From Ruegeria sediminis (GTDB taxonomy: Bacteria > Pseudomonadota > Alphaproteobacteria > Rhodobacterales > Rhodobacteraceae), in assembly GCF_005938215.1 (NCBI RefSeq), contig NZ_VCPD01000002.1, positions 186,001 to 250,000 on the forward strand: a stretch of DNA of 64,000 nucleotides, given 5' to 3'. The notes below the pieces were generated by a model. The model saw only the letters and a list, made by a program, of their open reading frames with translations, did no database searches and was not told where the DNA came from. This document shows positions 11,229 through 30,415 of the stretch, piece by piece. A program made the translations under genes and the position numbers. Position 1 is the first letter of the stretch. Each line of letters opens with the position of its first letter.

Positions 11229-11318
11229 GGAGAGGTGCCGGAGTGGTCGAACGGGGCGGTCTCGAAAACCGTTGTGGGCGCAAGTCCACCCAGGGTTCGA
11301 ATCCCTGTCTCTCCGCCA
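11229..11318 (+). tRNA. tRNA-Ser (anticodon CGA)
   Basis: 90 nt with encoded CCA. The seven-base acceptor GGAGAGG pairs with TCTCTCC. The anticodon stem GCGGT/ACCGT encloses loop CTCGAAA, giving anticodon CGA. A long variable arm (TTGTGGGCGCAAGTCCACC region) is typical of class II serine tRNAs, and the T-loop is GGTTCGAATCC. Its 3' portion is copied at 30293-30361, so this gene is the attachment site of the downstream island. Confidence 0.97.
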
Positions 11319-11325
11319 TTATCGC
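11257..11325 (+). repeat. Left attachment-site repeat (within tRNA-Ser)
   Basis: 69 bp identical to 30293-30361. It covers the anticodon arm, variable arm, T arm, acceptor 3' strand, CCA and the next seven bases. Divergence starts immediately on both sides of the matching block. Confidence 0.95.
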
Positions 11326-11547
11326 TCTGAAAAGCAATGATATCTATCGTATTTCAGGGCGTGGTACGATTTCCGTTATTGGCGATGCTTTGGGTCAAAG
11401 GTGTCATACTATGACCCCTTTTGGGCCTTCCACCGATGCCGGCTATGTCCCTTTGGGGTGTCGGCAATGACCCCCGTGCCCCTGATCATTGCGCGCTCGC
11501 GCAGACAACCGTACTTGCGTTATCTGGCGTCGCCTCCGAGTTTCGGT

Positions 11548-12147
11548 TCATCTTCGGGTCTTCCACACCCGCCGGTCGATCACCGCCTTCACCAAGGTCG
11601 CCAGGACCAGCGCGCAGAGGCCAAGTTTGGACACCACTTCCATCGTGCCTTCGATCAACATGGCGTGGACGATGCTGCTGACGGCGGCGATTGTCACAAG
11701 GGTCGTGTGGCCGAGACGCCATGTGCGAGGACGCAGCCGCATCCGTTTGCGCAAAGCGGCCATCAGCGCGGCGGCAAAAACCGCCCACATCGAGATCACA
11801 CCCCATGCCGAAAACGGTGTCGGCGATGCGAACAGAAGGGCGTCGACAACGTCCGGTGGGCTGGTGACCCAAAGGCCGGCGACATGGGCGACGATCGCGG
11901 CGACAAGAAACCCGCCGGTCCAGCGATGCACACGCCGGCTGCGCGCAAGCGACAGGCCCGGCAGGTAGTTGCCCGCAAGCAGTGGCTGCACCAGCAGCAG
12001 CGCCATTGCGACGACCCCCGCCAACCCGGCGGCGATATAGACGGGTTGGCGCCAGGCGAGCAGCGGGCTGTTCAGTGCGGCGGCGAGCGGCACGACGACG
12101 GCAATCGCCAGGGCGGACCAGATCAGGGCTGCGCGGAGCAGCGTCAT
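11548..12147 (-). CDS. Ferric-reductase-like transmembrane protein
   Basis: About 199 aa from the ATG at 12147 (a GTG at 12162 is possible). There are roughly six hydrophobic helices with histidines placed as in the ferric-reductase-like heme-binding domain (RRVHRWTGGFLVAAIVAHVAG, then WRLGHTTLV and SSIVHAMLI). Members bind b-type hemes and pass electrons across the inner membrane. No flavin domain is present, so a partner would be needed. It lies 20 bp downstream of an exported intradiol-dioxygenase-like protein, probably the same transcript. Confidence 0.65.
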   Translation of the reverse strand: MTLLRAALIWSALAIAVVVPLAAALNSPLLAWRQPVYIAAGLAGVVAMALLLVQPLLAGNYLPGLSLARSRRVHRWTGGFLVAAIVAHVAGLWVTSPPDVVDALLFASPTPFSAWGVISMWAVFAAALMAALRKRMRLRPRTWRLGHTTLVTIAAVSSIVHAMLIEGTMEVVSKLGLCALVLATLVKAVIDRRVWKTRR

Positions 12148-12167
12148 CCCGCGGCGGCCCACCCGGT

Positions 12168-12656
12168 TCAGACGGGCTGAAGCACGAAATGCGCGCTGAG
12201 GCTGGTGTCCTTGGCGCTTGGCATGACGGGACGCAGAAAAACGGGTTCGAACTCACCACTGTCATAGGCGAGGTGGCCGTGCGGCTGGCCGAAGGCAGGC
12301 ACGATCTGAGGCATTTCGAGACGGAATTCGCCATTCGCGTCGGTGAGCGTGGCGCCGTGGCTGTGCGGATCGCGTTCATGCCCTTCGGTGGTGTGGGCCC
12401 AGATCTGGATGCGCTGCCCGGCCAGCGGGGCGCCATCGCCGGCGCGGCGCACCGTGCCGGTCATCCAGAAGCCGCCAACGCCGATCCGGTTCACGATGGG
12501 TGCGCCGGGAAGATAGTTGTTGGCCCCACCGCGCATCGTGGGCGTCGGTGCCAGGCCCTGAGCCTGGGCGGGGACAATGGGCACAGACACGACGGCGGCC
12601 ATGGCGGCGCATCCGTTGACGATGAGCGAGCGGCGGGTCAATAGAACGGTAGGCAT
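12168..12656 (-). CDS. Exported intradiol-dioxygenase-like protein
   Basis: 162 aa from the ATG at 12656, with AGGAGA just upstream. The N-terminus carries a Tat-like signal (TRRSLIVNGCAAMAA). It continues into a beta-sandwich typical of intradiol ring-cleavage dioxygenases (GTVRRAGDGAPLAGQRIQIW, HGATLTDANGEFRLE, QPHGHLAY). It is shorter than catechol dioxygenases, and a complete Tyr/Tyr/His/His iron set is not obvious. Enzymatic activity is therefore uncertain. It is paired with the ferric-reductase-like gene. Confidence 0.6.
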   Translation of the reverse strand: MPTVLLTRRSLIVNGCAAMAAVVSVPIVPAQAQGLAPTPTMRGGANNYLPGAPIVNRIGVGGFWMTGTVRRAGDGAPLAGQRIQIWAHTTEGHERDPHSHGATLTDANGEFRLEMPQIVPAFGQPHGHLAYDSGEFEPVFLRPVMPSAKDTSLSAHFVLQPV

Positions 12657-12821
12657 GTGGAGTTCTCCTACGGAACTTGCTGTCGCTGGGCCGATCCGGC
12701 CAGCCCAGCAGCGACAGAGCCTGAATGTAGCACGATTCGAAATTTTCCGAGTGCGGCGCGGCCCTGAGCGGGGCAAACCGCGCTCAAGGTTTCGTGAGCG
12801 CGGGGGCGCAAGCGGGCCGTT

Positions 12822-13463
12822 CTAATCCGCCGCGAAGCAGTAGAAATAGCCGTTTCCACCGGTCGAGCGCAGGTTGTCCGCACTGCATCCGCGCGATTGG
12901 TGTGCCGCATTCCATGAGGTGTTTCCGCCGCCATGCCGGTCATGGTGGCCCACAGTCGCCGCACCCTCGCCGTTCGAGGTCCAGTTCGAGCAGGTCTTGT
13001 CGCCTTCCTGCCAGGGGAAATAGGCGGTGCCGTCCTCCTGTGTCCCTGTCAGGATGTCGTGCTCGTTGCGCTCGTCATAGCGCCCCATGATCCGGTTGCC
13101 GTTTTCGTCCAGCGCGGTGCGCAGGAAGATGTTGGGGTTGATGTGAAGCTGATCGAGGTCGACGGCGATGAGTTCGCCAATGGCGTTGTACCACGGGCCC
13201 GTGCCGATCCTTTCCCGCGCCGAGATGCCGCGCTTGCCCTCTTCCTGCGTAGACAGGTAGGCGCGCCATTCGCGATCGCCTGCGCCGGCGGCTTCGGCGA
13301 GGCTCTGGCAATGGGCGTCCGCGCCCTCGAGCCCTCCAAGATTTCCGCCGTCGCCCAGCCCGACCGAGGTTACGAAGAACCCCATCGGCGGCTCTTGTGC
13401 ATCCGCCGGAAGCGATTGTGAGGCCAGAATTGTCAGGGCAAATAGCGTGGTCAATCGGGTCAT
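12822..13463 (-). CDS. Exported lectin-like protein
   Basis: 213 aa with a signal peptide (TLFALTILASQSLPADAQ). The mature part has GFFVTSVGLGDGGNLGGLEG, WRAYLSTQ, several tryptophans and three or four cysteines near the C-terminus (KTCSNWTS, RGCSADN, YFYCFAAD). This pattern occurs in secreted C-type-lectin-like/DUF1554-like proteins. It probably acts in the periplasm or outside the cell; the ligand is unknown. Confidence 0.6.
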   Translation of the reverse strand: MTRLTTLFALTILASQSLPADAQEPPMGFFVTSVGLGDGGNLGGLEGADAHCQSLAEAAGAGDREWRAYLSTQEEGKRGISARERIGTGPWYNAIGELIAVDLDQLHINPNIFLRTALDENGNRIMGRYDERNEHDILTGTQEDGTAYFPWQEGDKTCSNWTSNGEGAATVGHHDRHGGGNTSWNAAHQSRGCSADNLRSTGGNGYFYCFAAD

Positions 13464-13706
13464 GACATCCTCCCTTTGCGACTGCCCGCAGTTTGCGGAG
13501 TTGCAGGGTTGGACGAAAGACCGCGATCAGGACTTCACGGTCAAGTGATAGGGAACGTGGCCGCCCAGTTGGGCTGACTGTCCTTTTCACGGAAGAACGG
13601 ATCACCACCCCCAAAAGCTTAATCGAAAGGCCCGTTGTCGGTGGGTATTTTTCGCCGCTTATTGTGATGCGTTGGACCCCAGAGCGGACTTCCACGGCGT
13701 CGGCAT

Positions 13707-13958
13707 CTACCGCAGCCTGGCCGTCAGATCGGCCATTCGTTCGTCGTGACGCGTGTTTTCGTGATCACTGGAATGGTCAGGGTCGATGGTGAATGTGTTT
13801 CTGATGGCTCCGGCGACGAGATTTGGAGCGTCGCAGTTTTTTCTTAGAATCCACCGGCGGGCAGCATCGCCAATAGTGAAATCGACACCTGTGAACGCAA
13901 TTTCGATCCTGTAGCCTGTCCGATCGGTTCGGTCGCCGTCACCCCATAATTCTCTCAT
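13707..13958 (-). CDS. Small hypothetical protein
   Basis: 83 aa, charged, no signal or membrane segment. An AAGAGAG site precedes the ATG. I do not recognise a family. The composition (TGYRIEIAFTGVDFTIGDAARRWI) looks protein-like rather than random, but there is no supporting neighbour, so the call is tentative. Confidence 0.4.
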   Translation of the reverse strand: MRELWGDGDRTDRTGYRIEIAFTGVDFTIGDAARRWILRKNCDAPNLVAGAIRNTFTIDPDHSSDHENTRHDERMADLTARLR

Positions 13959-14102
13959 TGGCGCTCTCTTGTTTTAAGCAAGCGCTTAATCGAGGCTGAA
14001 TAAGCCATTCGCCAATGGTGAAACAGGGTCAGAACGCTCAGGTCGGTGCACCGCGACAACTGCCGTTGCCGCCATTGAGAAATCTGAAACGAGGAAAATG
14101 CG

Positions 14103-14354
14103 ATGCGCACTCTTGCTCTGACAACGCTTGTCGCCCTGGCCAATCCCGCATTTGCGGAAGACCTGGGCATGGACACGATGCTCGGCACCACGATGGAAGA
14201 AGTGACCACCAGCCTGACAAATATGGGCTACGAGGTTCGCAACGCCGAAATGGAAGACGGCAAGATCGAGGTCTATTTCGTCAAGGACAAGACCAGGGGC
14301 GAAGTCTATGTGGACCCCAAGACCGGCAAGGTCACGAAGCTCGAGATGAAGTGA
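14103..14354 (+). CDS. Exported PepSY-domain protein
   Basis: 83 aa. A short signal peptide (MRTLALTTLVALANPAFA) is followed by one PepSY-like domain with MEEVTTSLTNMGYEVRNAEM and GEVYVDPKTGKVTKLEMK. A GAGGAAA site precedes the ATG. PepSY proteins are small periplasmic modules often encoded beside heme membrane proteins. The next gene, a cytochrome b561, starts 7 bp later, suggesting that they act together. Confidence 0.8.
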   Translation: MRTLALTTLVALANPAFAEDLGMDTMLGTTMEEVTTSLTNMGYEVRNAEMEDGKIEVYFVKDKTRGEVYVDPKTGKVTKLEMK

Positions 14355-14361
14355 GCGGACG

Positions 14362-14937
14362 ATGTCGGTAGCAGAAAATCAGACCAGCGGGCGCGACGGC
14401 GCCCGCGACACCCTCGTGTGGGACCCGCTTGTCCGGCTGATCCACTGGTCCCTTGCCCTCACGATCCTTGTGAACGGCGCAATCACCGACGACGAAAGCA
14501 AACTGCACGAATGGGTTGGTTATGCCGCGCTGGGGCTTGTTGCCATTCGCCTTCTTTGGGGGGGCATCGGATCGAGGAACGCACGGTTCTCGGCCTTCCC
14601 GCCCAGCCCTATGCGGGCAGTCAGCCATGTGCGGAGGGTTTTGCGCGGTGACCACACCGTCCAACTGTCGCACAACCCGTTGGGTGCGCTCATGGTCTAC
14701 AACCTCTGGCTCACCGTGATCGCTCTTGGCGTAACCGGTTACATGATGACGACGCTCCGGTTCCTTGGCATTGGCTGGGTGGCGGAAGCCCACGAATTGG
14801 CGTTCTACTGGCTGCTCCTGTCAGTCGGGTTGCATGTTGCGGGCGTGGGATTTGATGCTTGGCGTTCAGGTATCAATCTGGTGCGTGCAATGGTAAATGG
14901 ACGCAAGCGTATTCCTCTGGGAACCAAGGTGGAGTGA
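14362..14937 (+). CDS. Cytochrome b561 family protein
   Basis: 191 aa with four predicted helices. Heme-ligand-type histidines occur in VRLIHWSLA, SKLHEWVGY, EAHELAFYW and SVGLHVAGV. These di-heme inner-membrane proteins carry electrons between quinol or periplasmic donors and acceptors. It is second in a three-gene operon: PepSY protein, this gene, and a LuxR-type regulator whose GTG start overlaps this stop. Confidence 0.88.
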   Translation: MSVAENQTSGRDGARDTLVWDPLVRLIHWSLALTILVNGAITDDESKLHEWVGYAALGLVAIRLLWGGIGSRNARFSAFPPSPMRAVSHVRRVLRGDHTVQLSHNPLGALMVYNLWLTVIALGVTGYMMTTLRFLGIGWVAEAHELAFYWLLLSVGLHVAGVGFDAWRSGINLVRAMVNGRKRIPLGTKVE

Positions 14938-15344
14938 ATCGTCGAGAGCAGACGGCCAAAGCAAAGGAACGACGCGCGACGGTGCTTGCCGGCATCATCA
15001 TTCTGCAAGCTCTGTGCGCGCTGTTCGTCATCGGTGACGTTATCGTCGACCTCGGCGGCGGCGGGCAAATGGCCGAGGTGATGGAGGGTTTCTTTGAAGA
15101 CTGGAACCTGACTCCCGCGGAGCGAGACGTCGCAATCATGATCCTCAAGGGCATCGAAAACGAGGCCATCGCAAATGTCAGGAACACCGCGCCCGGCACC
15201 GTGCGCGCGCAAGCCACCAGCATCTATACCAAGTCAGGCACACACGGCCGCGCCCAGTTTGTCAGCTTGTGCATGGAAGAGCTGATGTCAGCCGACTTGT
15301 TCGCGGATGAGGCCAACAACGGCCATGATTCCGCACTTGCATAG
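14934..15344 (+). CDS. Membrane-anchored LuxR-type HTH protein
   Basis: 136 aa from the GTG at 14934, which overlaps the cytochrome stop (GTGA) and follows AAGGTGGA. A longer ATG frame would lie inside the cytochrome gene. Residues about 15-40 form a hydrophobic helix (LAGIIILQALCALFVIGDVIV). The C-terminal part is a LuxR/GerE-type helix-turn-helix: LTPAERDVAIMILKGIENEA, followed by PGTVRAQATSIYTKSG. A one-helix membrane-tethered regulator co-encoded with an electron carrier suggests redox-linked control, which is inference. Confidence 0.75.
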   Translation: MNRREQTAKAKERRATVLAGIIILQALCALFVIGDVIVDLGGGGQMAEVMEGFFEDWNLTPAERDVAIMILKGIENEAIANVRNTAPGTVRAQATSIYTKSGTHGRAQFVSLCMEELMSADLFADEANNGHDSALA

Positions 15345-15723: not shown

Positions 15724-16713
15724 TCAAGACTTGATACCCAGCCCCGAAAGGTCTTCGGTACGAATTGCAGTGATTGCTCGCTGTGCCAATCTGCGAGGTC
15801 GCAGAACCGTCCCGTATTGCTTTCTGTATGCCTTGCGCAGCCCGGATGCGGTTGAAAAACCACAGCGCAGGGCGATTTCCTCGATTCCAACTCCGGAATG
15901 TGTTGCCAGTTCACGGGCACGGGCCAGACGCAATGTTTGGTAGTAACGCCCAGGAGGGACACCAAGTTCCTTCACGAACAAGCGCGACAGGTTTCGCTCT
16001 GACAGATTGGACCGGCGCGCGAGTTCCGACAAGGGCAGCGGGGTTTCAATCGCGTCCGCCATCAAGGTCAGCACTTTCCGCAACTGCCCGGACCCGCGAC
16101 CGCCAAGCGTTGGAAAATTTCTTGCGGGGTCCGCCTGCGGTGGCGTGTCATGCAGGAACATTGTCGATACATCAAGCGCAACTGCGGGGCCGAAGTTTTC
16201 GTCAATGAACAACAGGATCAAGTCCAGCGCTGTCGCGGCACTGCCGCAGGTCCAGAAGCGCCCGTCGCGTACAAAACGCTCGTTGGTGGTGTGCGTATTC
16301 AAAAAGGTCTCGGCGAACTCGGAATGCAATTGCCAATGAATGGTGGCCCGCCGCCCGTCCAGCAAGCCGCAGGATGCCAATAGCCAAGCCCCGGTGTCGG
16401 CCCCGATCACCACTCCAGACCGCCGTGCGATCCGCAAGCTGTTTCGTATTGAACCCTTTGCGACCTCTTCGCGGAATTGATCGCCGCCGATCACCAGCAC
16501 CAGGTCGCTCTTCTGCGCATAGCGCTGCAACGTATCCGGTTCGACCCGAATTCCGCTGGAACTCGCCACTGCCGCGTCGTCGTGGGTGAGGATCGACCAG
16601 GTGATATCCGCGTCCAAGCTGTCACGGACCACCCGCAGCGGTTCCAGCAGGCAGGCGAGCACGATGTTCGAAAAAGCTTCGGAAAGCAGGATGGAGACAC
16701 TTAGAGATGGCAT
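15724..16713 (-). CDS. GlxA-family AraC-type transcriptional regulator
   Basis: 329 aa from the ATG at 16713; the open frame continues upstream but without a likely start. An N-terminal DJ-1/PfpI-like domain (LVLVIGGDQFREEV, SGVVIGADTGAWLLASCGLLDGR) is followed by two AraC helix-turn-helix motifs (LSELARRSNLSERNLSRLF and IEEIALRCGFSTASGLRKAY). This architecture is shared with GbdR and CdhR, activators of glycine betaine and carnitine catabolism. It is divergent from the CoA-transferase gene with 113 bp between, so it probably controls that operon. Confidence 0.88.
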   Translation of the reverse strand: MPSLSVSILLSEAFSNIVLACLLEPLRVVRDSLDADITWSILTHDDAAVASSSGIRVEPDTLQRYAQKSDLVLVIGGDQFREEVAKGSIRNSLRIARRSGVVIGADTGAWLLASCGLLDGRRATIHWQLHSEFAETFLNTHTTNERFVRDGRFWTCGSAATALDLILLFIDENFGPAVALDVSTMFLHDTPPQADPARNFPTLGGRGSGQLRKVLTLMADAIETPLPLSELARRSNLSERNLSRLFVKELGVPPGRYYQTLRLARARELATHSGVGIEEIALRCGFSTASGLRKAYRKQYGTVLRPRRLAQRAITAIRTEDLSGLGIKS

Positions 16714-16826
16714 TTGGCAATTTCGGCGTGCATTTTGTCCAAATTGGCGCGCGGTGGAGGTAAAGGCAACTCTAACGTCGCAAGTCAGCGCAACCGGTTT
16801 GCGTATGGCGACAGGAGATTCACTCG

Positions 16827-19307
16827 ATGACGACCCGCCCACTTGAGCACATCCGTGTTCTCGATTTCGGCCAATACCTCGCCGGTCCGCTTGTGGGCAT
16901 GATGCTGGCGGATCTGGGTGCAGATGTGATCCGAATTGATCCCCCAAGCGGCCCTCGGCTGAAGGAACCCGCCACCGATATGCTGTCGCGCGGCAAATCC
17001 GCGCTGACACTGGATCTGAAATCCGACGACGGATTGGCCATCGCACGGGATCTTGTTGCCCGCGCCGACGTGGTGATCGAGAACTTCCGTCCCGGTGTCA
17101 TGTCCCGTCTTGGTCTCGGGCCTGAAGAATTGCGCCGCATCAACCCGCAGATCATCTCGCTGTCGCTTCCGGGCTTTGCCTCGACTGATCCGGCGCTGGC
17201 CGATCTGCCTGCGTGGGAGGCGGTTATCGCCGCCCGCACCGGCCAGTTCACCGACATGGGGTTGAACCGGCGGCTGATGGGCATCAATCCCTCGTTCACG
17301 CCCCTTACCCTGGCCTCGGCCTACGGTGCGGCGTTTGGAGCGATGGCTGTCCAGTTCGCTCTGTATGCCCGTCCAAGAAATGGCGGCGATCATATCGAGG
17401 TCCCGTTGGCCTCGGCGCTATTGGAGGGACTGGTCTACAATTGTGAACAAATCGAAGACTACCCCCAACGCTTCAAATCTCCGCGCGAGGTCGAACTGGA
17501 TCGCCGTTCCGCTGAAGGTTTGCCAATGGATTTGCGCTACGAAGAACTGTCCGAGTTCCTCGACCCCTTCTATCGCACCTATACCTGCGCCGACGGCCGC
17601 GGCTTCTACGTGGTGGCGTGCAGTATTGTGAACCACCCTCGTAGGGTCTTGGAAACGCTGGGTCTCAAGGATCTTGCGGACGGCTTGCCCGATTTCGACG
17701 CATATCTCGATCAGGTGGATTGGCCGGACACATGGGCGCTGCGAAACTACCCTGTGGGCGAGAAGGATCGTGCCCGAATATCCGACGCAATGAAGGCGGC
17801 CTTTCTCACGAAACCCTCGCATGATTGGGAGATGCTGTTCGGCGCGGCCAAGGCCCCGGCTACCGCTCAGCGTTCCAGCCGGGAGTGGATGCACGACCCC
17901 CATGCGTTGGCCTCCGGCTTGGTCCTTGAGGTCGATGACCCGCGTCACGGTCGAATGAAGCAGATGGGAAATGTCGCTTGGCTGGCAGGAGACGACATGG
18001 CGTTGGTGAAGCGCCCTGGTCCCGTGGAGGACGGCGCGCGGGAACAACTCGCCAAGATACTGGCCGAGGCGCCCCGGACCGCGCCGGCGGTTGCCGGCTC
18101 CGCGGGCTGGCTCGACGGGCTCAAGGTGCTCGACCTGACCAACGTGATCGCGGGCCCCACCATCGGTTCGACCCTTGCCCGCTACGGTGCTGAAGTGACA
18201 ATGGTGCAACCGGTCTCGCCCTCGGTCGATCCGTGGAATGCCGTGGTCTTTGGTCTGCATGCCCATCGCGGCAAGGAAAGCGTGCTGCTGAACCTGCGTA
18301 AACCGACCGGGCAGGATGCGCTTCGAAAGCTGATCGCCCGATCGGACGTCATCACCATGAACGGCACGGATGCCCAACGCGACGCGCTGGGTCTGTCACC
18401 GGAGCAGCTGGCCACGATCAATCCACGCCTGATCCTGGTGCAATTGGATGCGTTCGGCGGGCCATCGCGTGGACCGAAATCCGACCATCTTGGCTACGAC
18501 GATCTGGCCCAGGCCGCGACCGGGGTAATGGTGCGCTTTGGTGGTGGAATGGAAACCCCGGAAGAACACGCTCATTTTGGCACAATCGACGTGCTGACCG
18601 GTTATTGCGCTTGTGTGGCGCTTGGCGCGGCCTTGCTGCGGCTGGAACGTACCGGCGAGGGAGGCATCGCCCGTGCGGCGTTGGCGGCGGCCGGCAACCT
18701 GATCCAGGCGCAACTGATGTACGATTTCGACGGCAGGGCGCCGTTCGACGAACCCTCGGGACGCGAGGCGCTTGGCTGGGGACCGTTCTACCACTGCTAC
18801 CGTGCCGCGGATGGCTGGATGTTCTTTGCCGCTCCCACCAACCGGCAGGAGGCGCTGTGCGAAGTGCCCGATCTGGCGGATTTGGCGGACTTGCCCGAGG
18901 ACGCTTTGGCCACCGCACTTAGCGGTCGTTTCGGCACCCGACCCACCGCGCACTGGGCCACTGCCTTTTCAGGGACGTCAAGCACGGTGATGCCGCTCGG
19001 CTCACTGCACGCCACGCGGGATGCGGCGCTGCAATTGGAAAGCGTGGGAGAGATTGACCTCGACCAAGGGACCTTCAGCGTGGTGCGCCACGACCTGCAC
19101 CCCATGGGGCGCTGGTGCGATCTGGTTGCGCCAAATGCGGTCCGCCCCGCAAAGGCTCGAGTTCGAATCCCAGGTCCGATGCCGAAATACGGCGCACATA
19201 CCCGCAAGGTACTGGAACAACTCGGGTACAGTACCGAACGTATCCATGAGATGATCGTCAACGGCGCCGCCGGAGAAAGCTGGTCGGAAAAATACCTGCC
19301 GGAATAG
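16827..19307 (+). CDS. Double-domain CaiB/BaiF (family III) CoA-transferase
   Basis: 826 aa, twice the usual ~400. The first CaiB/BaiF domain begins at HIRVLDFGQYLAGPLVGMML and the second at about residue 430 with LKVLDLTNVIAGPTIGSTLA. Each has the nucleotide-like LGADVI/YGAEVT segment. The second domain has AHFGTIDVLTGYCA around the expected catalytic aspartate region. Family III enzymes swap CoA between carboxylic acids through aspartyl-CoA. GGAGA precedes the ATG. It is followed 44 bp later by the dimethylformamidase-like gene, so both probably serve one catabolic route with an unknown acid substrate. Confidence 0.88.
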   Translation: MTTRPLEHIRVLDFGQYLAGPLVGMMLADLGADVIRIDPPSGPRLKEPATDMLSRGKSALTLDLKSDDGLAIARDLVARADVVIENFRPGVMSRLGLGPEELRRINPQIISLSLPGFASTDPALADLPAWEAVIAARTGQFTDMGLNRRLMGINPSFTPLTLASAYGAAFGAMAVQFALYARPRNGGDHIEVPLASALLEGLVYNCEQIEDYPQRFKSPREVELDRRSAEGLPMDLRYEELSEFLDPFYRTYTCADGRGFYVVACSIVNHPRRVLETLGLKDLADGLPDFDAYLDQVDWPDTWALRNYPVGEKDRARISDAMKAAFLTKPSHDWEMLFGAAKAPATAQRSSREWMHDPHALASGLVLEVDDPRHGRMKQMGNVAWLAGDDMALVKRPGPVEDGAREQLAKILAEAPRTAPAVAGSAGWLDGLKVLDLTNVIAGPTIGSTLARYGAEVTMVQPVSPSVDPWNAVVFGLHAHRGKESVLLNLRKPTGQDALRKLIARSDVITMNGTDAQRDALGLSPEQLATINPRLILVQLDAFGGPSRGPKSDHLGYDDLAQAATGVMVRFGGGMETPEEHAHFGTIDVLTGYCACVALGAALLRLERTGEGGIARAALAAAGNLIQAQLMYDFDGRAPFDEPSGREALGWGPFYHCYRAADGWMFFAAPTNRQEALCEVPDLADLADLPEDALATALSGRFGTRPTAHWATAFSGTSSTVMPLGSLHATRDAALQLESVGEIDLDQGTFSVVRHDLHPMGRWCDLVAPNAVRPAKARVRIPGPMPKYGAHTRKVLEQLGYSTERIHEMIVNGAAGESWSEKYLPE

Positions 19308-19351
19308 GCTGGATCGAGCTCGTCGCCGTGCAACCAGGAGACTCAGACAAA

Positions 19352-21754: not shown

Positions 21755-22720
21755 TCAATGTCTGCTCTCGGCAACCCTGCGCCGGCCGTCTTTAAGTGTC
21801 TCGGAAGGCCGCTCTCCAAAGGCTTTTCTGTAATCAGCGGCGAACTGACCAACATGCATGAAACCGTATTTCGACATTGCGTCGCCAATGAGGGTCTCGT
21901 CCGGGGGAGATTTTCGGAGATCGCTCCGCACAGAAGCGAGACGTCGCATTTTCATGAAAGCGGCAGGTCCGACGCCAAATCGATCATGGAACAACGCCTC
22001 AAGCGTCCGCCGCGATACACCGGCGAGTTCGCATAGCTCCAACACCGGCAGTTGTCTATGCGGTGACGCTTCGATCAGCGAGAGGCACCTGGCAAGGCCA
22101 CGTTCCCCCTTGCGGGGAGATCTTTCGTTCAGGTGCACCCCGCCTTGCGCGAGCCAGGCCAAGACGAGACTGTCCGTCGTGTCGCGGACTGCATCCTGCG
22201 ATACCGACGCAGGGCGGATGCGGGTTTCGGCAAGAACGCTTCGTGCGGCGTGAATCACCTGCGGTGCAGGACGGAACACTTCCGGACGGCGCTTCAAGGC
22301 AGGAAGCTGCACTTGAGCGCGCTCGGCGAGTTCCACAACGTATTGTTCGGTCACCGACAGGCAGAAATTGAGAAAGTCAGGTCCAGAAAAACATGCAATT
22401 TCAGCCCCTTCAGGAAAGATCAGAACGTCATCAGAGGTTACCGTCCTGCCTCTCCACCACAGGTTTCGGATGCTTGAGCCGAGTACCACCAAGGTGTGCC
22501 GGCCAGCCGGGGGGGCTCCTGCCTGATCGAGTGACGCACGAATTCGCGCGGAGCCGAATTCGACTTCGCCAAAACCGACCTGTACGACTTCTGCAGCCGC
22601 CAGGCCGTTGTTCACACCGGACAATGGCTTGAAGTCGAGGTCCCAATGTCTCGTGGTGTCGCAGAACAAGTCCACGTCATTGAAACATGCCTGAAGCAAA
22701 ATTTGATTTTCGCGTGCCAT
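21755..22720 (-). CDS. AraC-family transcriptional regulator
   Basis: 321 aa from the ATG at 22720 (a start at 22792 would add 24 residues). It has an N-terminal ligand-sensing region and a C-terminal AraC DNA-binding domain: LPVLELCELAGVSRRTLEALF, then the second helix pair near DAMSKYGFMHVGQFAADYRKAFGERPSE. It is divergent from the Tat-exported MBL hydrolase gene and probably regulates it. The ligand is unknown. Confidence 0.85.
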   Translation of the reverse strand: MARENQILLQACFNDVDLFCDTTRHWDLDFKPLSGVNNGLAAAEVVQVGFGEVEFGSARIRASLDQAGAPPAGRHTLVVLGSSIRNLWWRGRTVTSDDVLIFPEGAEIACFSGPDFLNFCLSVTEQYVVELAERAQVQLPALKRRPEVFRPAPQVIHAARSVLAETRIRPASVSQDAVRDTTDSLVLAWLAQGGVHLNERSPRKGERGLARCLSLIEASPHRQLPVLELCELAGVSRRTLEALFHDRFGVGPAAFMKMRRLASVRSDLRKSPPDETLIGDAMSKYGFMHVGQFAADYRKAFGERPSETLKDGRRRVAESRH

Positions 22721-22858
22721 CACAGAACAGTAGCGGCAGTTCAGCAAAAAGCAAAAATTTGCGGAATCTCGATCACTGTTCTGACGCGCCATTGTGCATC
22801 TTCTAAGCACCTTTTTCGTGGCCCTATGCGGCCGGCACGTCAACGAAGGACGCATCGA

Positions 22859-24319
22859 ATGACCAAAGACATTCAGAACGACCCGAAACAGCCGAACCAC
22901 ATCGAGGACGGTGCGCCGCAGGACCCGACGCGCCGCACAGTGCTGAAAGGCATCGCGACAGGCGCTGCAGCAACCGGCGCCGCAGGGTTGGCAGCCGGGA
23001 GCGCCGAGGCTCACGAAGGCAGCGGGCCACTCGGGGCGGAGCTTAAGAACCCGTATGGCGGCCGCCCGGCCGGGGGCATCAGCCTGCCCGAATACTTCCG
23101 ACCGACCAAATACATGACGGGCTCCAACGCCAACTATTTCCCGCTCTCCGAGGAGCTTGGTCCTGACGAGATGCGCATCTCCTTCTGCGGCTCAACCCCC
23201 TATCCGCCGCGGGAGGATCAGGCCGGGACGTGCATCATGGTCGAGCTTGGCAACGGCAAGCGCTTCTTTTTCGATTTCGGCTCGGGTTGCGTGCGCAATA
23301 TCGTGGGAATGCAGGTGCCGGGGCAATTGATCAACGACATCTTCATCTCGCATCTTCACGTCGACCACTATGCCGACATTCCCTACATCTATCCGTTCCG
23401 GGCGTGGTCGGGCGGGTACACGCCACTGCGCATCCATGGGCCTTCGGGGCGCACCCCGGAACTTGGCACCCAAGCAATGGTCGACGGTATGAAGCAGATG
23501 CTGAGGTGGCATCTGGAAGCCTTCGACGTATTTCCCATCGGAGACGGGTACGAGATTGAGGTCAACGAGTTCGACTTCCGTCAAGAGGGGGGCGTCGTCT
23601 ATGACGAGGATGGTGTCACGGTACGTTCGTGGCCGCGAAGCCACGCCAAGGACGGCGCTGTGGGATACCGCCTCGATTGGAACGGCCTCAGCTTTGTCTG
23701 GACGGGTGATGGTCGCCCTGACGAGTTGTCGCGGAAATATGGCGAAGGCGCTGACGTGTTCGTGACCGAAATGTCCGGTCAAGATATCGGCCAACTAATG
23801 ACCTACAAATACGGTATCCCGCAAGAGCTCTTCAACTACACCATCGATACGCACCACACCTCTCACTACGCGGTCGGCAAGCTTTTCGCGGATGCGCGTC
23901 CAAGGCTTGGCATGGTCACCCACTACACGCAGGACGAGGATATCGATGCGGAGATGCTGGCAGGTATCCGCGCGCATTACGACGGCCTGTTCCAGTGGGG
24001 CATCGACGTTGCTGTCGTGAATGTCACCAAGGAGGCAATCTGGTATCGCAAGGCGGTGATTCCTGGTAAATCGGGAACGGTGCCGCCGTTCCGCGAGTTG
24101 CAAGCCGAAGTGGATGCCGGTCGGCTCGAACTGCCCGAAGAGATTACGCTGCCAAATCCACGCCTGACCCGCGCCGATCAGCAGGATCAGAAGTACCGCG
24201 ACATGGAGATCGATCCGAAGGAATACTACCCCGAGGATGTCTTCCGCGCTCCCGACGGTGAATGGCCGAAGGACCTAACGATCAAGGTGTCCGACGTGCT
24301 CGGTCCCCGCGACAAGTAA
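22859..24319 (+). CDS. Tat-exported metallo-beta-lactamase-fold hydrolase
   Basis: 486 aa from the ATG at 22859, preceded by GAAGGA. A twin-arginine signal (TRRTVLKGIATGAAATGAAG) predicts export of a folded, metal-loaded protein. The MBL-fold metal motif is HLHVDHYAD, with further ligands in WTGDGRPDEL and the late DTHHTSHYAVGKL. The long C-terminal tail after about residue 400 is unusual for the fold. It is followed 15 bp later by a G3E GTPase, which suggests assisted metal loading. The substrate is unknown. Confidence 0.82.
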   Translation: MTKDIQNDPKQPNHIEDGAPQDPTRRTVLKGIATGAAATGAAGLAAGSAEAHEGSGPLGAELKNPYGGRPAGGISLPEYFRPTKYMTGSNANYFPLSEELGPDEMRISFCGSTPYPPREDQAGTCIMVELGNGKRFFFDFGSGCVRNIVGMQVPGQLINDIFISHLHVDHYADIPYIYPFRAWSGGYTPLRIHGPSGRTPELGTQAMVDGMKQMLRWHLEAFDVFPIGDGYEIEVNEFDFRQEGGVVYDEDGVTVRSWPRSHAKDGAVGYRLDWNGLSFVWTGDGRPDELSRKYGEGADVFVTEMSGQDIGQLMTYKYGIPQELFNYTIDTHHTSHYAVGKLFADARPRLGMVTHYTQDEDIDAEMLAGIRAHYDGLFQWGIDVAVVNVTKEAIWYRKAVIPGKSGTVPPFRELQAEVDAGRLELPEEITLPNPRLTRADQQDQKYRDMEIDPKEYYPEDVFRAPDGEWPKDLTIKVSDVLGPRDK

Positions 24320-24334
24320 GGAACAGGTGCCTGC

Positions 24335-25324
24335 ATGATCGAATTCGGCTCAACCTCTGCCGTTCCCGTCACCATCCTTACCGGCTTCCTCGGAGCCGGT
24401 AAGACAACCCTTCTGAACCGGATCCTTACCGGAAACCACGGCCTGCGCGTCGCAGTTCTGGTCAATGATTTCGGGTCCATCAATGTCGATGCCGATCTCG
24501 TAGTGGGCGTCGAGGACGACGTCATGAGCCTCGCCAATGGCTGCGTCTGCTGCTCGATCCGGGATGACCTGATCGAGACGGTCGAGGCGGTGCTCGCCCG
24601 TCCGGAGCGGCCGGAATACATCCTGCTGGAAGCCAGCGGCGTTTCCGACCCGTCTTCCATCGCCATGACTTTTACCGACCAAAGGTTCCGCGACATGATC
24701 CGCCTCGACAGCATCATGTGCCTCGTCGACGCTGAACAAGTCTTTGCGGCGCCAGAACAAATGGAACTGAAACTGCGCCAGATCGCCTTCTCGGACATGG
24801 TAGTCCTAAACAAGGTGGATCTCGTAAACCGGGAAACGGTGCAGAAGGTCCACGAATGGCTGGGCTCTCGCTTCCGCCGCTACCGGTTGGTGGAAGCAGT
24901 CGACGCTGACGTACCGCTCGACATACTTCTCTCGGTCGGCAGGTTTTCCGCCGAGCAACTGGATGCGGACGTGCCTGACCACGTTCATGACTCCGGTTGC
25001 GGGTGTCCAGAACACTCGCATCACCATGACCACGCGGCTCAATTCTCGACCACGATGTTCCGCTCGGACCTTCCGGTCACCTTGTCGGGCCTGCGAGAAG
25101 CAATCAAGGAACTGCCAGGCGAGGTGTACCGCATAAAAGGGTTCGTCTTCAGCGAGGAGGCCCCCGAACACCGGATCGTCGTGCAGGTTGTCGGCAAGCG
25201 CATCGACATTGCGCGAGACAAAAAGTGGGGAAGCCGCAAGCCGGAAACACGCCTCGTCGCAATCGGAGCGCCCGGAGCCGTTTCGGAAGACACCTTGAGA
25301 AGAGTGTTTCTCGAAGTGGCGTAA
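24335..25324 (+). CDS. G3E-family GTPase (CobW/COG0523 metal chaperone)
   Basis: 329 aa. It has Walker A GFLGAGKTTLLN, the metal-binding GCVCCSIRDDL (CXCC motif), the ASGVSDP switch region, NKVDL for guanine, and a histidine-rich insert (HDSGCGCPEHSHHHDHA) before the CobW C-terminal domain. COG0523 proteins deliver zinc, cobalt or iron to client enzymes using GTP. The client may be the MBL hydrolase just upstream, as the two genes are 15 bp apart; this is an inference from context. Confidence 0.9.
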   Translation: MIEFGSTSAVPVTILTGFLGAGKTTLLNRILTGNHGLRVAVLVNDFGSINVDADLVVGVEDDVMSLANGCVCCSIRDDLIETVEAVLARPERPEYILLEASGVSDPSSIAMTFTDQRFRDMIRLDSIMCLVDAEQVFAAPEQMELKLRQIAFSDMVVLNKVDLVNRETVQKVHEWLGSRFRRYRLVEAVDADVPLDILLSVGRFSAEQLDADVPDHVHDSGCGCPEHSHHHDHAAQFSTTMFRSDLPVTLSGLREAIKELPGEVYRIKGFVFSEEAPEHRIVVQVVGKRIDIARDKKWGSRKPETRLVAIGAPGAVSEDTLRRVFLEVA

Positions 25325-25803: not shown

Positions 25804-26583
25804 ATGCCCGAAGTCATAGATTTTTCACTGTGGTTTACACTTGCCGCCACGATCATGCTCTTCGTGGGCAGCGCCTTGATCGGTGTCTGGTTTTCCAGGT
25901 CTCGCGAAGCCGCGGGCGGAACGAGCGTCACGACGCTGCATTCCGCGATCCTGGGAATGCTCGCCTTGCTGGTTGGCTTCACCTTCGCCATGGCTCTGAG
26001 CCGGCATGAAGCGCGTCGCCTTGCGCTTCTCGAAGAGGCCAACGCAATAGGAACCGCCGCGCTGCGGGCGCGCATGATACCGGTGCCCTATGCCGGTGAA
26101 AGCGTCGCACTCATTGCCGAGTACATTGATCTCCGGCAGAGGATCGCCGAAGTTGGTCCGACGCACGTCGATCTCAAGGCGCTTGTGAACCGGTCCAACG
26201 AAATCCAGGAAACCCTGTGGCAGCGCGCCATGAAGGCAGCGGCGCTTGATCCGGCGATGGTTCCGACCGGCCTGTACATAGACGCGCTGAATACCACGAT
26301 CGATCTTCAGACCACCCGGCTCGCCGCCAGCCGCGCTCATATCCCTGAAGTGGTTTACCTGACGATCTATTTCGTCGCCTGTTGCGCGATGGGCTTTTCC
26401 GGATACGTTGCCGCGCTGGAAACCTCCCGGCTGGGAAGCTCAACCTTGTTGATGGCCTTTCTTGTGACAGCCGTCATCATGCTGATCCATGATCTCGACC
26501 GGCCGAACCAGGGGTTCATTCGCCTGAACCAGCAGCCGATGCTGGACACGGCGCGATCGATTGCGGACTGGCAAAGGGGTTGA
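25804..26583 (+). CDS. Bestrophin-like (DUF4239-type) membrane protein
   Basis: 259 aa with two hydrophobic helices at the N-terminus (FTLAATIMLFVGSALIGVWF and LHSAILGMLALLVGFTFAMA) and two at the C-terminus, with a helical, charged middle of about 120 residues. This layout matches the bacterial bestrophin-like/DUF4239 family, of unproven function, possibly anion conductance. No neighbour suggests a role. Confidence 0.7.
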   Translation: MPEVIDFSLWFTLAATIMLFVGSALIGVWFSRSREAAGGTSVTTLHSAILGMLALLVGFTFAMALSRHEARRLALLEEANAIGTAALRARMIPVPYAGESVALIAEYIDLRQRIAEVGPTHVDLKALVNRSNEIQETLWQRAMKAAALDPAMVPTGLYIDALNTTIDLQTTRLAASRAHIPEVVYLTIYFVACCAMGFSGYVAALETSRLGSSTLLMAFLVTAVIMLIHDLDRPNQGFIRLNQQPMLDTARSIADWQRG

Positions 26584-26909
26584 GTTCCCAACCGGCCTGC
26601 GACTTCCGGGGGCATTCCGGCGACGGACGAACCGGAACTCTGGCGCGTCCGATACGGCGATCCTTCGTGCCTAGGAAACCGCAGAGCGTTTGCTGATCTT
26701 CTCACATATGTCCTTGGCGACCTTTTCGCCGAGGCCTCGGTGATTTCCGAATTTCCGTCTCATCTCGTCTCAATCGCTCCGCCCCGGGCACACTGCAAGA
26801 CCGGGCGATCGAAGGTTGGGATCAGAGAAACCTGCCAAAAAAAGCCCGAAAATGGACGCAGGTCCCGATACACCGAACTCACAGTGTGCCTGGCCGCCGC
26901 CCTGATCAC

Positions 26910-27090
26910 GCTCTTCTTCATTCCGTCCTGGGACTGGCGGCCTTCGCTGTGGTCGGCTGCCATGCGGCGCTTGCATTCGGAGCGCCATTGTTGGACGCCG
27001 CCAGCATGGGTATGGTAACCGCTACCGGCGGTGGCATCATTTGCGATATGCTGACGATCACGCAGCCGATGATCCTGCCCCGATGCAGCA
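26910..27090 (+). pseudogene. Fragment of a UPF0126/TRIC-type membrane protein gene
   Basis: A short frame encodes GLAAFAVVGCHAALAFGAPL followed by MGMVTATGGGIICDMLTITQ. This is the duplicated core of the UPF0126 (TRIC/YicG) family, which normally spans about 200 aa. There is no proper start, the expected N-terminal half is missing and the frame degrades after about 27085. The rest of the 26584-27134 gap shows nothing recognisable. This is a decayed copy left in the island. Confidence 0.65.
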
Positions 27091-27134
27091 AACCGCGGCG
27101 AGATTGCTTCCCCCGGAAAAGCTGACGCCGGCGA

Positions 27135-28067
27135 TCAGACCCGTTGTCTTTCGACGATGCATCTTTCATTTCCGGTGTCGGAGAAGTGTTCGTGACAGGC
27201 GTCAACGAAATGCTGCACCAGGCGGCGAGGGCGCGATTTGTCGTAGCCGACGGCAAGGGGCAGAGGCGGCAGCGGATCGGAAATCGGCAAACCCGCCAAC
27301 TCGGCGCCGCAATAGCTTGTCGACGTCAGCGGCTGCATGTTGAGAACCGCGCATCCATGGCCTGCGCTGACAAGACTGCGCACCATCTCGGTCGAGTTTG
27401 CGTAGGCAACGATCGAGATATCCTTGGTGTGCGCTTCAAGAAGGCCCTGGTAATAAGTTGCCGCAACAGGACGGTTGAGTACAACAAGAGGCTCTTTTGC
27501 AACCTGCGCCATGCTCACACTGCCTTGCGTGGCCAAAGGATGCGACGCGGGCAACAGGCAGTAGGCAGGGGCCTCGACCAGAACGTCGAAATCGACGGTG
27601 GGCCGCACATCCTCACCGACGAAGAGAATGACGTCGTATGTTCCGTTCACCAAGCCATCCTGTGCGCTGTTGTTGTCGCATTCTTCGAGATGCAGCACCA
27701 CTTTGTTGCCCTCGGGAACGAAGGAGGAAAGGATGGACGGCAAGAAAGCGGGGGCAACGGGCGCGTAATACCCGATGCGCAACGTGCCGCTCAGGGCTTC
27801 CTTCAGATCTGCACCCTCGGAAAGAACCGATTGGTAGTCTTCAAGCAAGCGCTCGAACTTTTGCGCCACCAAGCGCCCGCTTGCATTGGCCTGTATCCCG
27901 CGTGACCGCTGTCTTGTGATCAGTGTCAAATCGAACGCGGCCTCAACCTGGTCAATCGCAGCGGACACGGCGGAAGCGGCGATGTTCAACTCTTCCGCGG
28001 CCCTCGCGATGTTCCCATGGCGCAATGCGGTTGTGTAATACTCCATCGCCTTGAGTGTGATCGCCAC
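27135..28067 (-). CDS. LysR-family transcriptional regulator
   Basis: 310 aa from a GTG at 28067. The N-terminal winged helix has HGNIARAAEELNIAASAVSAA, and the rest is the LysR effector-binding domain (LRIGYYAPVAPAFLPSILSS onward). The 106-bp AT-rich gap to the divergent fatty acid hydroxylase-like gene is where its operator should lie. It probably controls that gene and the PanB-like gene behind it. Confidence 0.9.
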   Translation of the reverse strand: MAITLKAMEYYTTALRHGNIARAAEELNIAASAVSAAIDQVEAAFDLTLITRQRSRGIQANASGRLVAQKFERLLEDYQSVLSEGADLKEALSGTLRIGYYAPVAPAFLPSILSSFVPEGNKVVLHLEECDNNSAQDGLVNGTYDVILFVGEDVRPTVDFDVLVEAPAYCLLPASHPLATQGSVSMAQVAKEPLVVLNRPVAATYYQGLLEAHTKDISIVAYANSTEMVRSLVSAGHGCAVLNMQPLTSTSYCGAELAGLPISDPLPPLPLAVGYDKSRPRRLVQHFVDACHEHFSDTGNERCIVERQRV

Positions 28068-28173
28068 GACTACCTCGGTTTTTCCGGTTTTATTACGCTA
28101 TTAAAACTGTTTTTCACAGGTTTCCGCTTCTGTCAAACTCCGGCCTGTGCTGCTCGGTTGGAAGGCAACTCGG

Positions 28174-29154
28174 ATGTCAGATGCACCTCTCAAAGGCTGG
28201 AACCATGTTCCTGCCGTCCCGCTCAAGGTTTCCCCGTTCTTCGCCCGGCCTCTGCGCCCGCTCGACATGCTGGCCTGGGTCTGGAACTCGTGGTTCCTGA
28301 TCACAGAACGGCTGATCATCGTCGGCATCGCGTTTGCGTCGTACTACTGGTTCCAGCCGCCGCTGGAGGAGTCGCGCACCTTCGCCTTCGGATGGATCGC
28401 GCAGATGTATTTGCGCAACCTCGTGCTGATGTCGCTGGTGGCCGGCGGGCTGCACCTCTATTTCTACACCTTCACCCGGCAAGGTCAGAAACTGCGCTAT
28501 GACACGCGCCCGCTGATGAAGAACGGGCGCCAGTTCACGCTGGGCGGCCAGATCAGGGACAACATGTTCTGGACCCTGGCCAGCGGCGTCACGGTCTGGA
28601 CGGCATACGAGGTGCTGATGTTCTGGGCCCTGGCGAACGGCTACGCGCCGATGCTGACTTGGGCCGCGCACCCGGTCTGGTTCATTGCGCTGTTCCTGCT
28701 GATCCCGGTGTGGGAGAGCTTTTATTTCTACTGGATCCACCGCCTGCTGCACGTGCCGTTCCTCTACCGGCACGTGCACGCGCTGCATCATCGGAACATC
28801 AACGTGGGGCCATGGTCCGGGATGTCGATGCATCCCGTGGAGCATGTGATCTTTCTGGGCTCGGTCCTGATCCACTGGATCGTTGCCGCGCATCCGGTCC
28901 ACATCCTCTACCATCTGCAGTATTACGCGCTGACCGCCACCACCACCCACACCGGGTTCGAGGGTCTTCTGGTCAAGGACAAGAACCGCCTGGCATTGGG
29001 AACGTTCCATCACCAGATGCACCACCGCTACTTCGAGTGCAATTACGGCTCGCTCGAGATCCCGTGGGACAAGCTGTTCGGTTCGTTCCACGACGGGACC
29101 AGCGAGGCGAACGAGCGGATGAAGGAGCGGCGCAAGAAGATGACGGGGAACTGA
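28174..29154 (+). CDS. Sterol desaturase/fatty acid hydroxylase family protein
   Basis: 326 aa from the ATG at 28174 with GGAAGG upstream; a GTG at 28147 is less likely. A membrane protein with about four helices and the eight-histidine di-iron motif set of the family: HRLLH, HALHHRN, and HHQMHHR near the C-terminus. Members hydroxylate or desaturate lipids with O2 at the membrane. The stop codon directly abuts the ATG of the PanB-like gene, so the two are co-translated. The substrate is unknown. Confidence 0.85.
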   Translation: MSDAPLKGWNHVPAVPLKVSPFFARPLRPLDMLAWVWNSWFLITERLIIVGIAFASYYWFQPPLEESRTFAFGWIAQMYLRNLVLMSLVAGGLHLYFYTFTRQGQKLRYDTRPLMKNGRQFTLGGQIRDNMFWTLASGVTVWTAYEVLMFWALANGYAPMLTWAAHPVWFIALFLLIPVWESFYFYWIHRLLHVPFLYRHVHALHHRNINVGPWSGMSMHPVEHVIFLGSVLIHWIVAAHPVHILYHLQYYALTATTTHTGFEGLLVKDKNRLALGTFHHQMHHRYFECNYGSLEIPWDKLFGSFHDGTSEANERMKERRKKMTGN

Positions 29155-29940
29155 ATGGCCGCCTTGACGATCAGGGATCTGCTGGAGGCCAAAGGCAAGC
29201 GCCAATTGGCCTATGTCCAGGTCGCCCGCGAAGAAGAAGCCATCGCTGCGTCGCAGGCGGGCATGGACATGATAGGTACTGCCTTCATTCCGGAACGCGC
29301 ACATTTTGCCAGGGCGGTACCCGATACGCATTTCCAGTTCGGGATGCCTTGGGGAAAACACGCCGATGCAACGGAGGTTCTGCGCGACGCGATGGCGGCG
29401 ATGCAAGCCGGCGCGCAATCGATCTACTGCGGCATGAGCCCGTCGGTCGTCGAGGCGCTTGCGCGCGAAGGGGTGCCGGTCATCTGCCATGTCGGGCTGG
29501 TGCCGCCCAAGGCCACCTGGACAGGCGGCTACCGCGCCGTGGGAAAGACGCTGGAACAGGCCAGGATGGTCTGGCGGCAGGTTCAGGATTTCGAGGCAGC
29601 CGGTGCCTTCGCGGTCGAGATGGAAGTCGTAACCGCGAACCTTGCTGCAGAGATCTCGAGACGGACATCGATGCTGACGATCTCGCTGGGCTCGGGCGGT
29701 GGGTGCGATGTGCAATACCTGTTTTCCGCCGACCTGCTGGGCGAGAACCGGGGGCATGTCCCGCGCCATGCCAAGACCTACCGGAACTTCGCGGCCGAGC
29801 GGGACCGTCTCCAGGCCGAAAGGGTCGCCGCCTACAAGGAGTTCATCGCGGATGTTTCATCCGGCGCGTTTCCTGAGGCGGATCATATCGTGAAAATGGA
29901 CCCCGATGCTTTGCAGGGCGTCTGGAGACACGATGTTTGA
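29155..29940 (+). CDS. Ketopantoate hydroxymethyltransferase-like enzyme
   Basis: 261 aa, TIM-barrel pattern like PanB: AGMDMIGTAF near the N-terminus, and VPVICHVGLVPPKATWTGGY corresponding to the PanB HVGLTPQ segment, then EVVTANLAAEISRRT. True PanB makes ketopantoate for CoA synthesis. This copy lies in an island beside a lipid-modifying enzyme without panC, so it may act on a different 2-oxoacid, or belong to the wider phosphoenolpyruvate-mutase/PanB superfamily. Confidence 0.65.
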   Translation: MAALTIRDLLEAKGKRQLAYVQVAREEEAIAASQAGMDMIGTAFIPERAHFARAVPDTHFQFGMPWGKHADATEVLRDAMAAMQAGAQSIYCGMSPSVVEALAREGVPVICHVGLVPPKATWTGGYRAVGKTLEQARMVWRQVQDFEAAGAFAVEMEVVTANLAAEISRRTSMLTISLGSGGGCDVQYLFSADLLGENRGHVPRHAKTYRNFAAERDRLQAERVAAYKEFIADVSSGAFPEADHIVKMDPDALQGVWRHDV

Positions 29941-30292
29941 TGCGGAAGTATGACCGGCATCGGCCGTGTTGCAGAACGCCGAATCTCGAGATCGGAGCGC
30001 ATTGCCGCAGCGCGGAGGCGTAGCCCGGTTTCCGTCGCCAAGAAATGTCCGCTCCTGCTGATTAGACCGTGAGGCATGCGATCGCAGCGAAGGTCCGGAA
30101 CCCGCCCATTTTCCGGAAAGCACCATCCATTCAGAACTACCGCTCAAAATCCGAAGCGGGAGAACTTCCCGTTCCCTGCTTTGACACATTCCTATCACGC
30201 CCCTACCCTTCACCCATGCCGACTTTGCCCATTTCGAACCAGACAATTCCCTTGTTTTGTTGACTCTGCAATTCTCAGAAGAACCCAAGAAA
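29941..30292. other. Right end of island, gene-free
   Basis: 352 bp without a credible gene. An 18-bp segment at 30080-30097 matches 25394-25411 with one mismatch. It ends at the right attachment repeat. Confidence 0.5.
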
Positions 30293-30361
30293 CGGTCTCG
30301 AAAACCGTTGTGGGCGCAAGTCCACCCAGGGTTCGAATCCCTGTCTCTCCGCCATTATCGC
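30293..30361 (+). repeat. Right attachment-site repeat (tRNA-Ser 3' fragment)
   Basis: 69 bp identical to 11257-11325. It lacks the tRNA acceptor 5' strand and D arm, so it is not a functional tRNA gene. It marks the distal junction of the island. Confidence 0.95.
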
Positions 30362-30415
30362 CGTGAATTCCAGCTGATCCGTTGTTTCAGCGCCGATCGG
30401 CGTTCCATTCCCCGC

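Follow-up and report, generated by a model that had tools for sequence, protein, structure and literature searches.

The tRNA-Ser(CGA) locus

In a 64,000-nucleotide window of the genome of Ruegeria sediminis (positions 186001-250000 of contig C11, NZ_VCPD01000002.1, in a 4.23-Mb draft assembly of 18 contigs) we found a genomic island that is bounded by the tRNA-Ser(CGA) gene and by a second copy of the 3' part of that gene. This tRNA gene is the single one that ARAGORN detects in the 64-kb window. The features that mark the two borders of the island are as follows (genomes, contigs and loci used for comparison carry G, C and L numbers):

11229-11318, plus strand: complete tRNA-Ser(CGA) gene, the integration target (ARAGORN, Rfam tRNA model)
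11257-11325, plus strand: attL, first copy of the 69-bp repeat (tRNA 3' part and 7 bp)
11320-11481, plus strand: left end of the element, which in relatives runs directly into the integrase gene (profile match, E 1.2e-28; direct similarity)
11437-11450, plus strand: candidate integrase arm-type motif TGCCGGCTATGTCC (pattern TGCCGRCTWTGYCC)
30180-30264, plus strand: right end of the element (profile match, E 1.3e-9), holding TGCCGACTTTGCCC at 30217-30230
30293-30361, plus strand: attR, second copy of the 69-bp repeat
30362-32035, minus strand: rearranged flank with a dmdB-like acyl-CoA ligase gene (30416-32035), 54 bp from attR, which adjoins tRNA-Asn in most relatives sampled

The direct repeat extends over 75 bp at 97% identity (11257-11331 and 30293-30367), the first 69 bp being free of mismatches, and the spacing between the copies is 19,036 bp. 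It begins at position 29 of the tRNA, in the anticodon stem, and takes in the final 62 bp of the gene and 7 bp beyond its 3' end. When the complete assembly was searched for the tRNA plus flank, both repeat sites were recovered and, at 76-83% identity, two other tRNA-Ser genes. The first-pass annotation of this DNA had taken the perfect duplication for an integration scar and had drawn the island boundaries from it; the identical repeat and the conserved element ends just inside both copies, described below, bear out both statements.

Two substitutions are common to both repeat copies and absent from that part of the tRNA in 51 relatives, 48 of which differ from R. sediminis at two positions, two at three and one at four. 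The second copies found in relatives are 77-97% identical to the tRNA part of R. sediminis, whereas the two copies of R. sediminis itself are identical, which would be explained either by a recent integration from a close source or by gene conversion that keeps the copies alike.

Conserved ends of the element

Over the 140-160 bp that follow the tRNA, the island resembles the corresponding place in three other Ruegeria genomes, G005 (84% identity over 223 bp including the tRNA), G019 (77%) and G020 (84% over 184 bp), and also in G061, and the similarity of the left end reaches seven other genera in addition to these genomes. A profile made from 10 left-end sequences, R. sediminis excluded, matched the island at 11320-11481 with an E-value of 1.2e-28. 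For the right end, the 130-135 bp that precede the second tRNA copy were taken from nine places in other genomes, picked by position and not by likeness; the nine sequences align with each other and their profile matched the island at 30180-30264 with an E-value of 1.3e-9. Because its sequences were chosen by position alone, the right-end profile is the cleaner test of the two. In 1.2 Mb of control sequence from R. sediminis, G022 and G024 the only other matches were one to the right profile (E 0.12) and one to the left profile (E 0.0092), the latter at the same left site on the opposite strand.

The 64 kb contain just two occurrences of the pattern TGCCGRCTWTGYCC, at 11437 and 30217, one in each end; having been fitted to both sites, it is not an independent test, and we regard the two sites as candidate arm-type binding sites. 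The left end also contains a near-palindrome around GTCATACTATGAC (11397-11436), to which the left profile matches on the other strand too and which may be a recombinase or regulator site. No significance is claimed for a shorter motif, TRTSACRCCCC, which was not enriched (6 found against 8.6 expected). A plain DNA search for the right end among 394 genomes of the family gave matches in 57 of them, R. sediminis included, mostly to the PanB-like gene of the island or to a dispersed short sequence; real right ends were recovered in this way from G165 and, weaker, from G090 only. An all-against-all BLAST comparison of left ends was likewise set aside, as the matches listed were mainly to the conserved region that follows the tRNA in empty sites.

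Related elements and their integrase

The left end was present in eight of the 394 genomes of the family, R. sediminis being one of these. The seven other genomes contain it at eight loci, seven of which have a complete tRNA-Ser(CGA) gene; at the eighth (in G090) it lies behind a partial copy, 48 kb past the first. In G005, G149, G165 and G090 the left end is followed by a full-length tyrosine integrase gene of 365 codons (PF00589, 55.3 bits), which starts at most about 300 bp from the tRNA and is oriented toward it (251-1345 bp after the tRNA in G005). In G433 the integrase is split into two pieces in different frames, and parts of it were found in the second copy of G090 and in G065. These assignments are based on tblastn searches with three integrase sequences and, among the matches listed, on a single PF00589 search that covered 14 genomes.

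The connection with the tRNA extends to named genomes. A search of their contigs with the integrase returned eight loci, and all six good matches (69-100% identity) were accompanied by tRNA-Ser(CGA), within about 260 bp in five cases and at 2.4 kb in one; they belong to two uncultured Rhodobacteraceae, Ca. Halocynthiibacter alkanivorans, Ruegeria sp. R13_0, Celeribacter litoreus and Celeribacter sp. HF31. The remaining two loci were weak matches without the tRNA.

The elements of G005 (Ruegeria sp. R13_0, NZ_JAGHRB010000019.1, L188) and G165 (Ca. Halocynthiibacter alkanivorans, L186) have the same left end and the same target tRNA as the island, and the right end of the island is found in these genomes as well (contig C56 of G005, contig C99 of G165). 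Unlike the island, both elements keep the 365-aa integrase, and apart from distant paralogues and flanking genes they showed nothing of the island cargo. The island thus has the repeat, the left end and the right end of a G005-type element and lacks the integrase after the left end, and we therefore class it as a decayed relic and not as an autonomous member.

Tandem arrangements occur in the family. In G090 (L210-L213, C1:3551000-3630999) the tRNA-Ser gene is followed by a left end, a full integrase and a right end, and a second tRNA copy at 48 kb is followed by another left end and a partial integrase, so that the region is a tandem pair. In G076 (L164, C11:300900-320000 of that genome, 83-3480) a complete tRNA-Ser(CGA) is followed by about 3.3 kb with a weak left end and a right end; the 3' part of the tRNA then appears a second time, together with one more weak left end. 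The arrangement looks like a very small element without integrase that stands in tandem with another one.

Absence of an integrase from the island

The assembly of R. sediminis has 11 matches to PF00589, none of them between the repeats. Pfam scans of the 17 interior open reading frames (ORFs) and of 10 ORFs in the gaps between them, all of about 90 aa or longer, revealed no recombinase, phage or conjugation families; since phage structural and lysis families were also missing from these 27 ORFs by Pfam, the island does not qualify as a prophage. tblastn of three integrases from related islands against the interior gave a best E-value of 0.29 and no integrase remnant. Where G005 has the integrase (251-1345 bp after the tRNA), R. 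sediminis has a gene for a ferric-reductase-like protein, from 230 bp onwards, and its neighbour. Loss of the integrase from the island of R. sediminis is the simplest reading of this pattern. Among the 11 PF00589 proteins of the genome, the closest to the G005-type integrase shares 28% identity with it over 236 residues, and there is accordingly no evident driver of excision in the genome.

The profile search, the ORF scans and tblastn all agree with the first-pass annotation in that the island has no visible recombinase. Its picture of an island that simply stands without an integrase needs revision in one respect: a recombinase family can be assigned, since the left end is that of the elements in which a tyrosine integrase is linked to tRNA-Ser(CGA).

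The right flank

The first-pass annotation had predicted that in strains lacking the element tRNA-Ser would run straight into the sequence that starts at 30362. This prediction failed: the 3' end of dmdB could be located in 52 of 53 same-genus genomes (the exception being G027, which is 89% complete) and adjoined the tRNA in none of the 52, the closest pair on one contig being about 55 kb apart (G024). In response to this failure the synteny of the region was analysed; the island itself was not rejected.

In 24 of 51 relatives a quinone-oxidoreductase gene, as a rule followed by liv genes, lies within 1.2 kb after tRNA-Ser; in another 16 the distance from the tRNA to the oxidoreductase or livH is 1.6-32 kb, and in 11 neither was in the fetched stretch, one of these stretches ending after 1 kb. 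The oxidoreductase-liv cluster of R. sediminis is located at C11:350196-357883, on the same strand and 153 kb downstream of tRNA-Ser, and is directly preceded by a tRNA-Asn gene (C11:349063-349137). Among 20 relatives sampled for the surroundings of dmdB, 16 have two tRNA-Asn genes beside it, G024 has one, G030 and G006 have none, and in G016 the contig ends there; two tRNA-Asn genes beside dmdB are also found in G022. The adjacencies of tRNA-Ser with the oxidoreductase and of tRNA-Asn with dmdB have thus become tRNA-Ser/island/dmdB and tRNA-Asn/oxidoreductase in R. sediminis. A two-break rearrangement explains the right flank and, given the gene order of G022, would most simply be one large inversion between the tRNA loci. 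As G024 also has the tRNA-Asn/oxidoreductase adjacency by block chaining, the rearrangement appears to be older than the species R. sediminis. In G024 (L249, L113) the pair of tRNA-Asn genes is split, one lying by dmdB and one by the oxidoreductase-liv cluster, as if the break fell between the copies.

Cargo genes

The genes between the repeats, with the databases that support each assignment, are:

11548-12162, minus strand: ferric-reductase-like membrane gene, in the integrase place of related elements (Pfam)
12168-12776, minus strand: secreted CarboxypepD_reg-like gene, also in the integrase place of related elements (Pfam match below cut-off)
12822-13463, minus strand: secreted DUF1554 protein (Pfam)
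14362-14937, plus strand: cytochrome b561 (Pfam)
14859-15344, plus strand: LuxR-type regulator (Pfam)
15724-17046, minus strand: module 1, DJ-1/PfpI-AraC (GlxA-type) regulator (Pfam, NCBIfam)
16827-19307, plus strand: module 1, double CaiB-type CoA-transferase (Pfam)
19328-20986, plus strand: module 1, DMFA2-type amidohydrolase (Pfam)
21755-23014, minus strand: module 2, AraC regulator (Pfam, NCBIfam)
22646-24319, plus strand: module 2, MBL-fold hydrolase (Pfam, NCBIfam)
24335-25324, plus strand: module 2, CobW GTPase (Pfam, NCBIfam)
25804-26583, plus strand: bestrophin-like membrane protein (Pfam)
27135-28067, minus strand: module 3, LysR regulator (Pfam)
28147-29154, plus strand: module 3, fatty-acid-hydroxylase family protein (Pfam)
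29155-29940, plus strand: module 3, PanB-like enzyme (Pfam)

The description of the interior as modules of a regulator plus enzymes, free of phage and conjugation genes, was borne out by the Pfam scans. As listed, the ORF of the GlxA-type regulator overlaps the next gene and therefore probably begins further inside. The MBL-fold protein exceeds the NCBIfam cut-off for GntH (556 against 333 bits), which is to be read as a family label only. A pseudogene fragment that had also been reported was not identified by any analysis of the interior; one frame at 26740-27130, where the ORF scanned had no Pfam match, has by eye what we take to be a resemblance to a piece of a TRIC/UPF0126-type membrane protein, and this is perhaps the fragment that was meant. 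Just before the right end, the stretch at 30071-30124 has matches in more than 10 other genomes of the family (81-96% identity over 25-43 bp) and may be a dispersed intergenic repeat.

The interior genes are not found at this site in 51 relatives, where the stretches after tRNA-Ser contain only distant paralogues (at most 37% identity), in support of the view that the interior belongs to an integrated element. Relatives of the CoA-transferase at an E-value of 1e-150 or better are present in 22 of 53 same-genus relatives, the nearest being 82% identical; that of G067 is on the same contig as tRNA-Ser, about 530 kb off, and the other matches listed are on other contigs. In other genera the CoA-transferase was found at nine loci (about 71-78% identity), five of which have the DMFA2 partner within 1.5-kb flanks and four of these five the regulator too, so that the full module of regulator, CoA-transferase and DMFA2 also occurs at L219, L220, L221 and L223. 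The co-occurrence of the partners in other genera indicates that module 1 forms a stable unit and has a history of its own.

Origin of the island

We consider it very probable that the island is a genuine integrated element of a tRNA-Ser(CGA) family, that its integrase has since been lost and that its flank was rearranged separately. From the repeats, both conserved ends and the linkage of the integrase to the tRNA, all of which are observed, we infer that a G005-type tyrosine integrase would have joined a circular element to the 3' part of the tRNA, producing the 69-bp repeats. The integrase gene behind the left end would later have been lost, cargo genes now being in its place, which would have left attL, attR and both ends around the regulator-plus-enzyme modules as a relic that resembles a cis-mobilizable element and is probably immobile now. 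In a separate event, two breaks, most simply those of a large inversion, would have swapped the 3' neighbours of the tRNA-Ser and tRNA-Asn loci; old and new adjacencies are both seen in the genomes compared, from which we infer the inversion, and it may have come before or after the integration.

Several observations weigh against this history. Since no integrase remnant survives, the identity of the integrase is read from the end sequences, and those of the left end were partly gathered by similarity to the island, so that the left profile is not fully independent. Such an integrase was not found by tblastn in G404, G276, G170 and G061, which means that loss must be frequent or that some elements never had an integrase. 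G017 and G007 carry a different integrase (an 88% identical pair) 5-7 kb downstream of tRNA-Ser(CGA) (L066, L072), and more than one integrase type thus uses this hotspot. As to the flank, the ancestral order is unreadable in the 11 relatives without the oxidoreductase in the stretch and in G030 and G006, and the chaining of synteny blocks allows gaps of up to 8-10 kb.

The copies without such an integrase in G404, G276, G170 and G061, together with the 3.3-kb one in G076, the retention of both ends and identical att copies, the tandem arrays in G065 and G090 and the precedents discussed below, would also suit a functional non-autonomous element that is integrase-less by nature and becomes mobile once a G005-type element has entered the cell, either through the integrase of that element or by standing in tandem with it. 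The genome of R. sediminis, however, lacks a G005-type integrase, the cargo varies between copies and no near-identical integrase-less pair was found that would show recent movement, and we think this explanation unlikely. Insertion by an unrelated integrase once located elsewhere in the island, for instance one of the G017/G007 type 5-7 kb inside, draws on the combination in G017 of the right end of the island with the other integrase, but the left end of the island is linked to the G005-type integrase and is missing from G017, which makes this quite improbable. The right repeat copy lies at the rearrangement breakpoint, 54 bp from dmdB, as would be expected if the repeat were a by-product of the rearrangement, with the end of the tRNA copied at the breakpoint by segmental duplication. 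Such an origin is very improbable: each repeat has an element end directly inside it, order and spacing being those of other elements, and relatives with the ancestral order have such repeats too (G017, G020, G025, G070, G076). That the repeat is an artefact of a draft assembly of 18 contigs, or a chance repeat, is barely conceivable: 69 bases are identical, and each copy has element-specific flanks that border the same tRNA part in the assemblies of other genomes.

Comparison with known elements and implications

A cis-mobilizable element (CIME) is defined, in the passages of PMC5704250 that deal with it, as a decayed integrative and conjugative or integrative and mobilizable element that retains attL and attR. 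Like a CIME so described, the island keeps attL and attR at a tRNA-type site and has kept its cargo, integration and transfer genes being absent from the 17 interior and 10 gap ORFs by Pfam, and relatives of it stand in tandem (G065, G090). Unlike a CIME so described, it has neither a neighbouring element nor a cognate integrase in its genome. The end sequences point to the family of the ancestral integrase.

A second parallel is formed by the 15 ssrA genomic islands of Dehalococcoides that are without an integration module (in the sections of PMC3146451 that treat them), which share with the island an RNA-gene target, a direct repeat of its 3' end, metabolic cargo and sister islands with an integration module by attL. 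Those islands involve serine recombinases and the tmRNA gene, as against a tyrosine integrase and tRNA-Ser(CGA) here. Among the papers listed in literature searches there was no description of this tRNA-Ser(CGA) element family, which is not proof that none exists. Nothing in the island is categorically new; what is new are the two ends of the element family, its link to tRNA-Ser(CGA) across several genera of Rhodobacteraceae and the rearranged flank.

It is conceivable, if rather doubtful, that elements of this tRNA-Ser(CGA) family lose the integrase with such frequency that the form reduced to its ends has become a successful non-autonomous state. They would then be minimal integrative elements with regulator-plus-enzyme modules, remobilised in trans or in tandem by an integrase-bearing sister, and the site would also be a breakpoint hotspot for large rearrangements with the tRNA-Asn locus. 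More generally, the analysis means that two short conserved ends are enough to place an island without an integrase in a recombinase family, and those ends are given here. It also means that the flank of a tidy, repeat-bounded island may mislead: what adjoins the right repeat on its outer side is not the ancestral neighbour, and a simple empty-site alignment would therefore seem to refute an island that is real.

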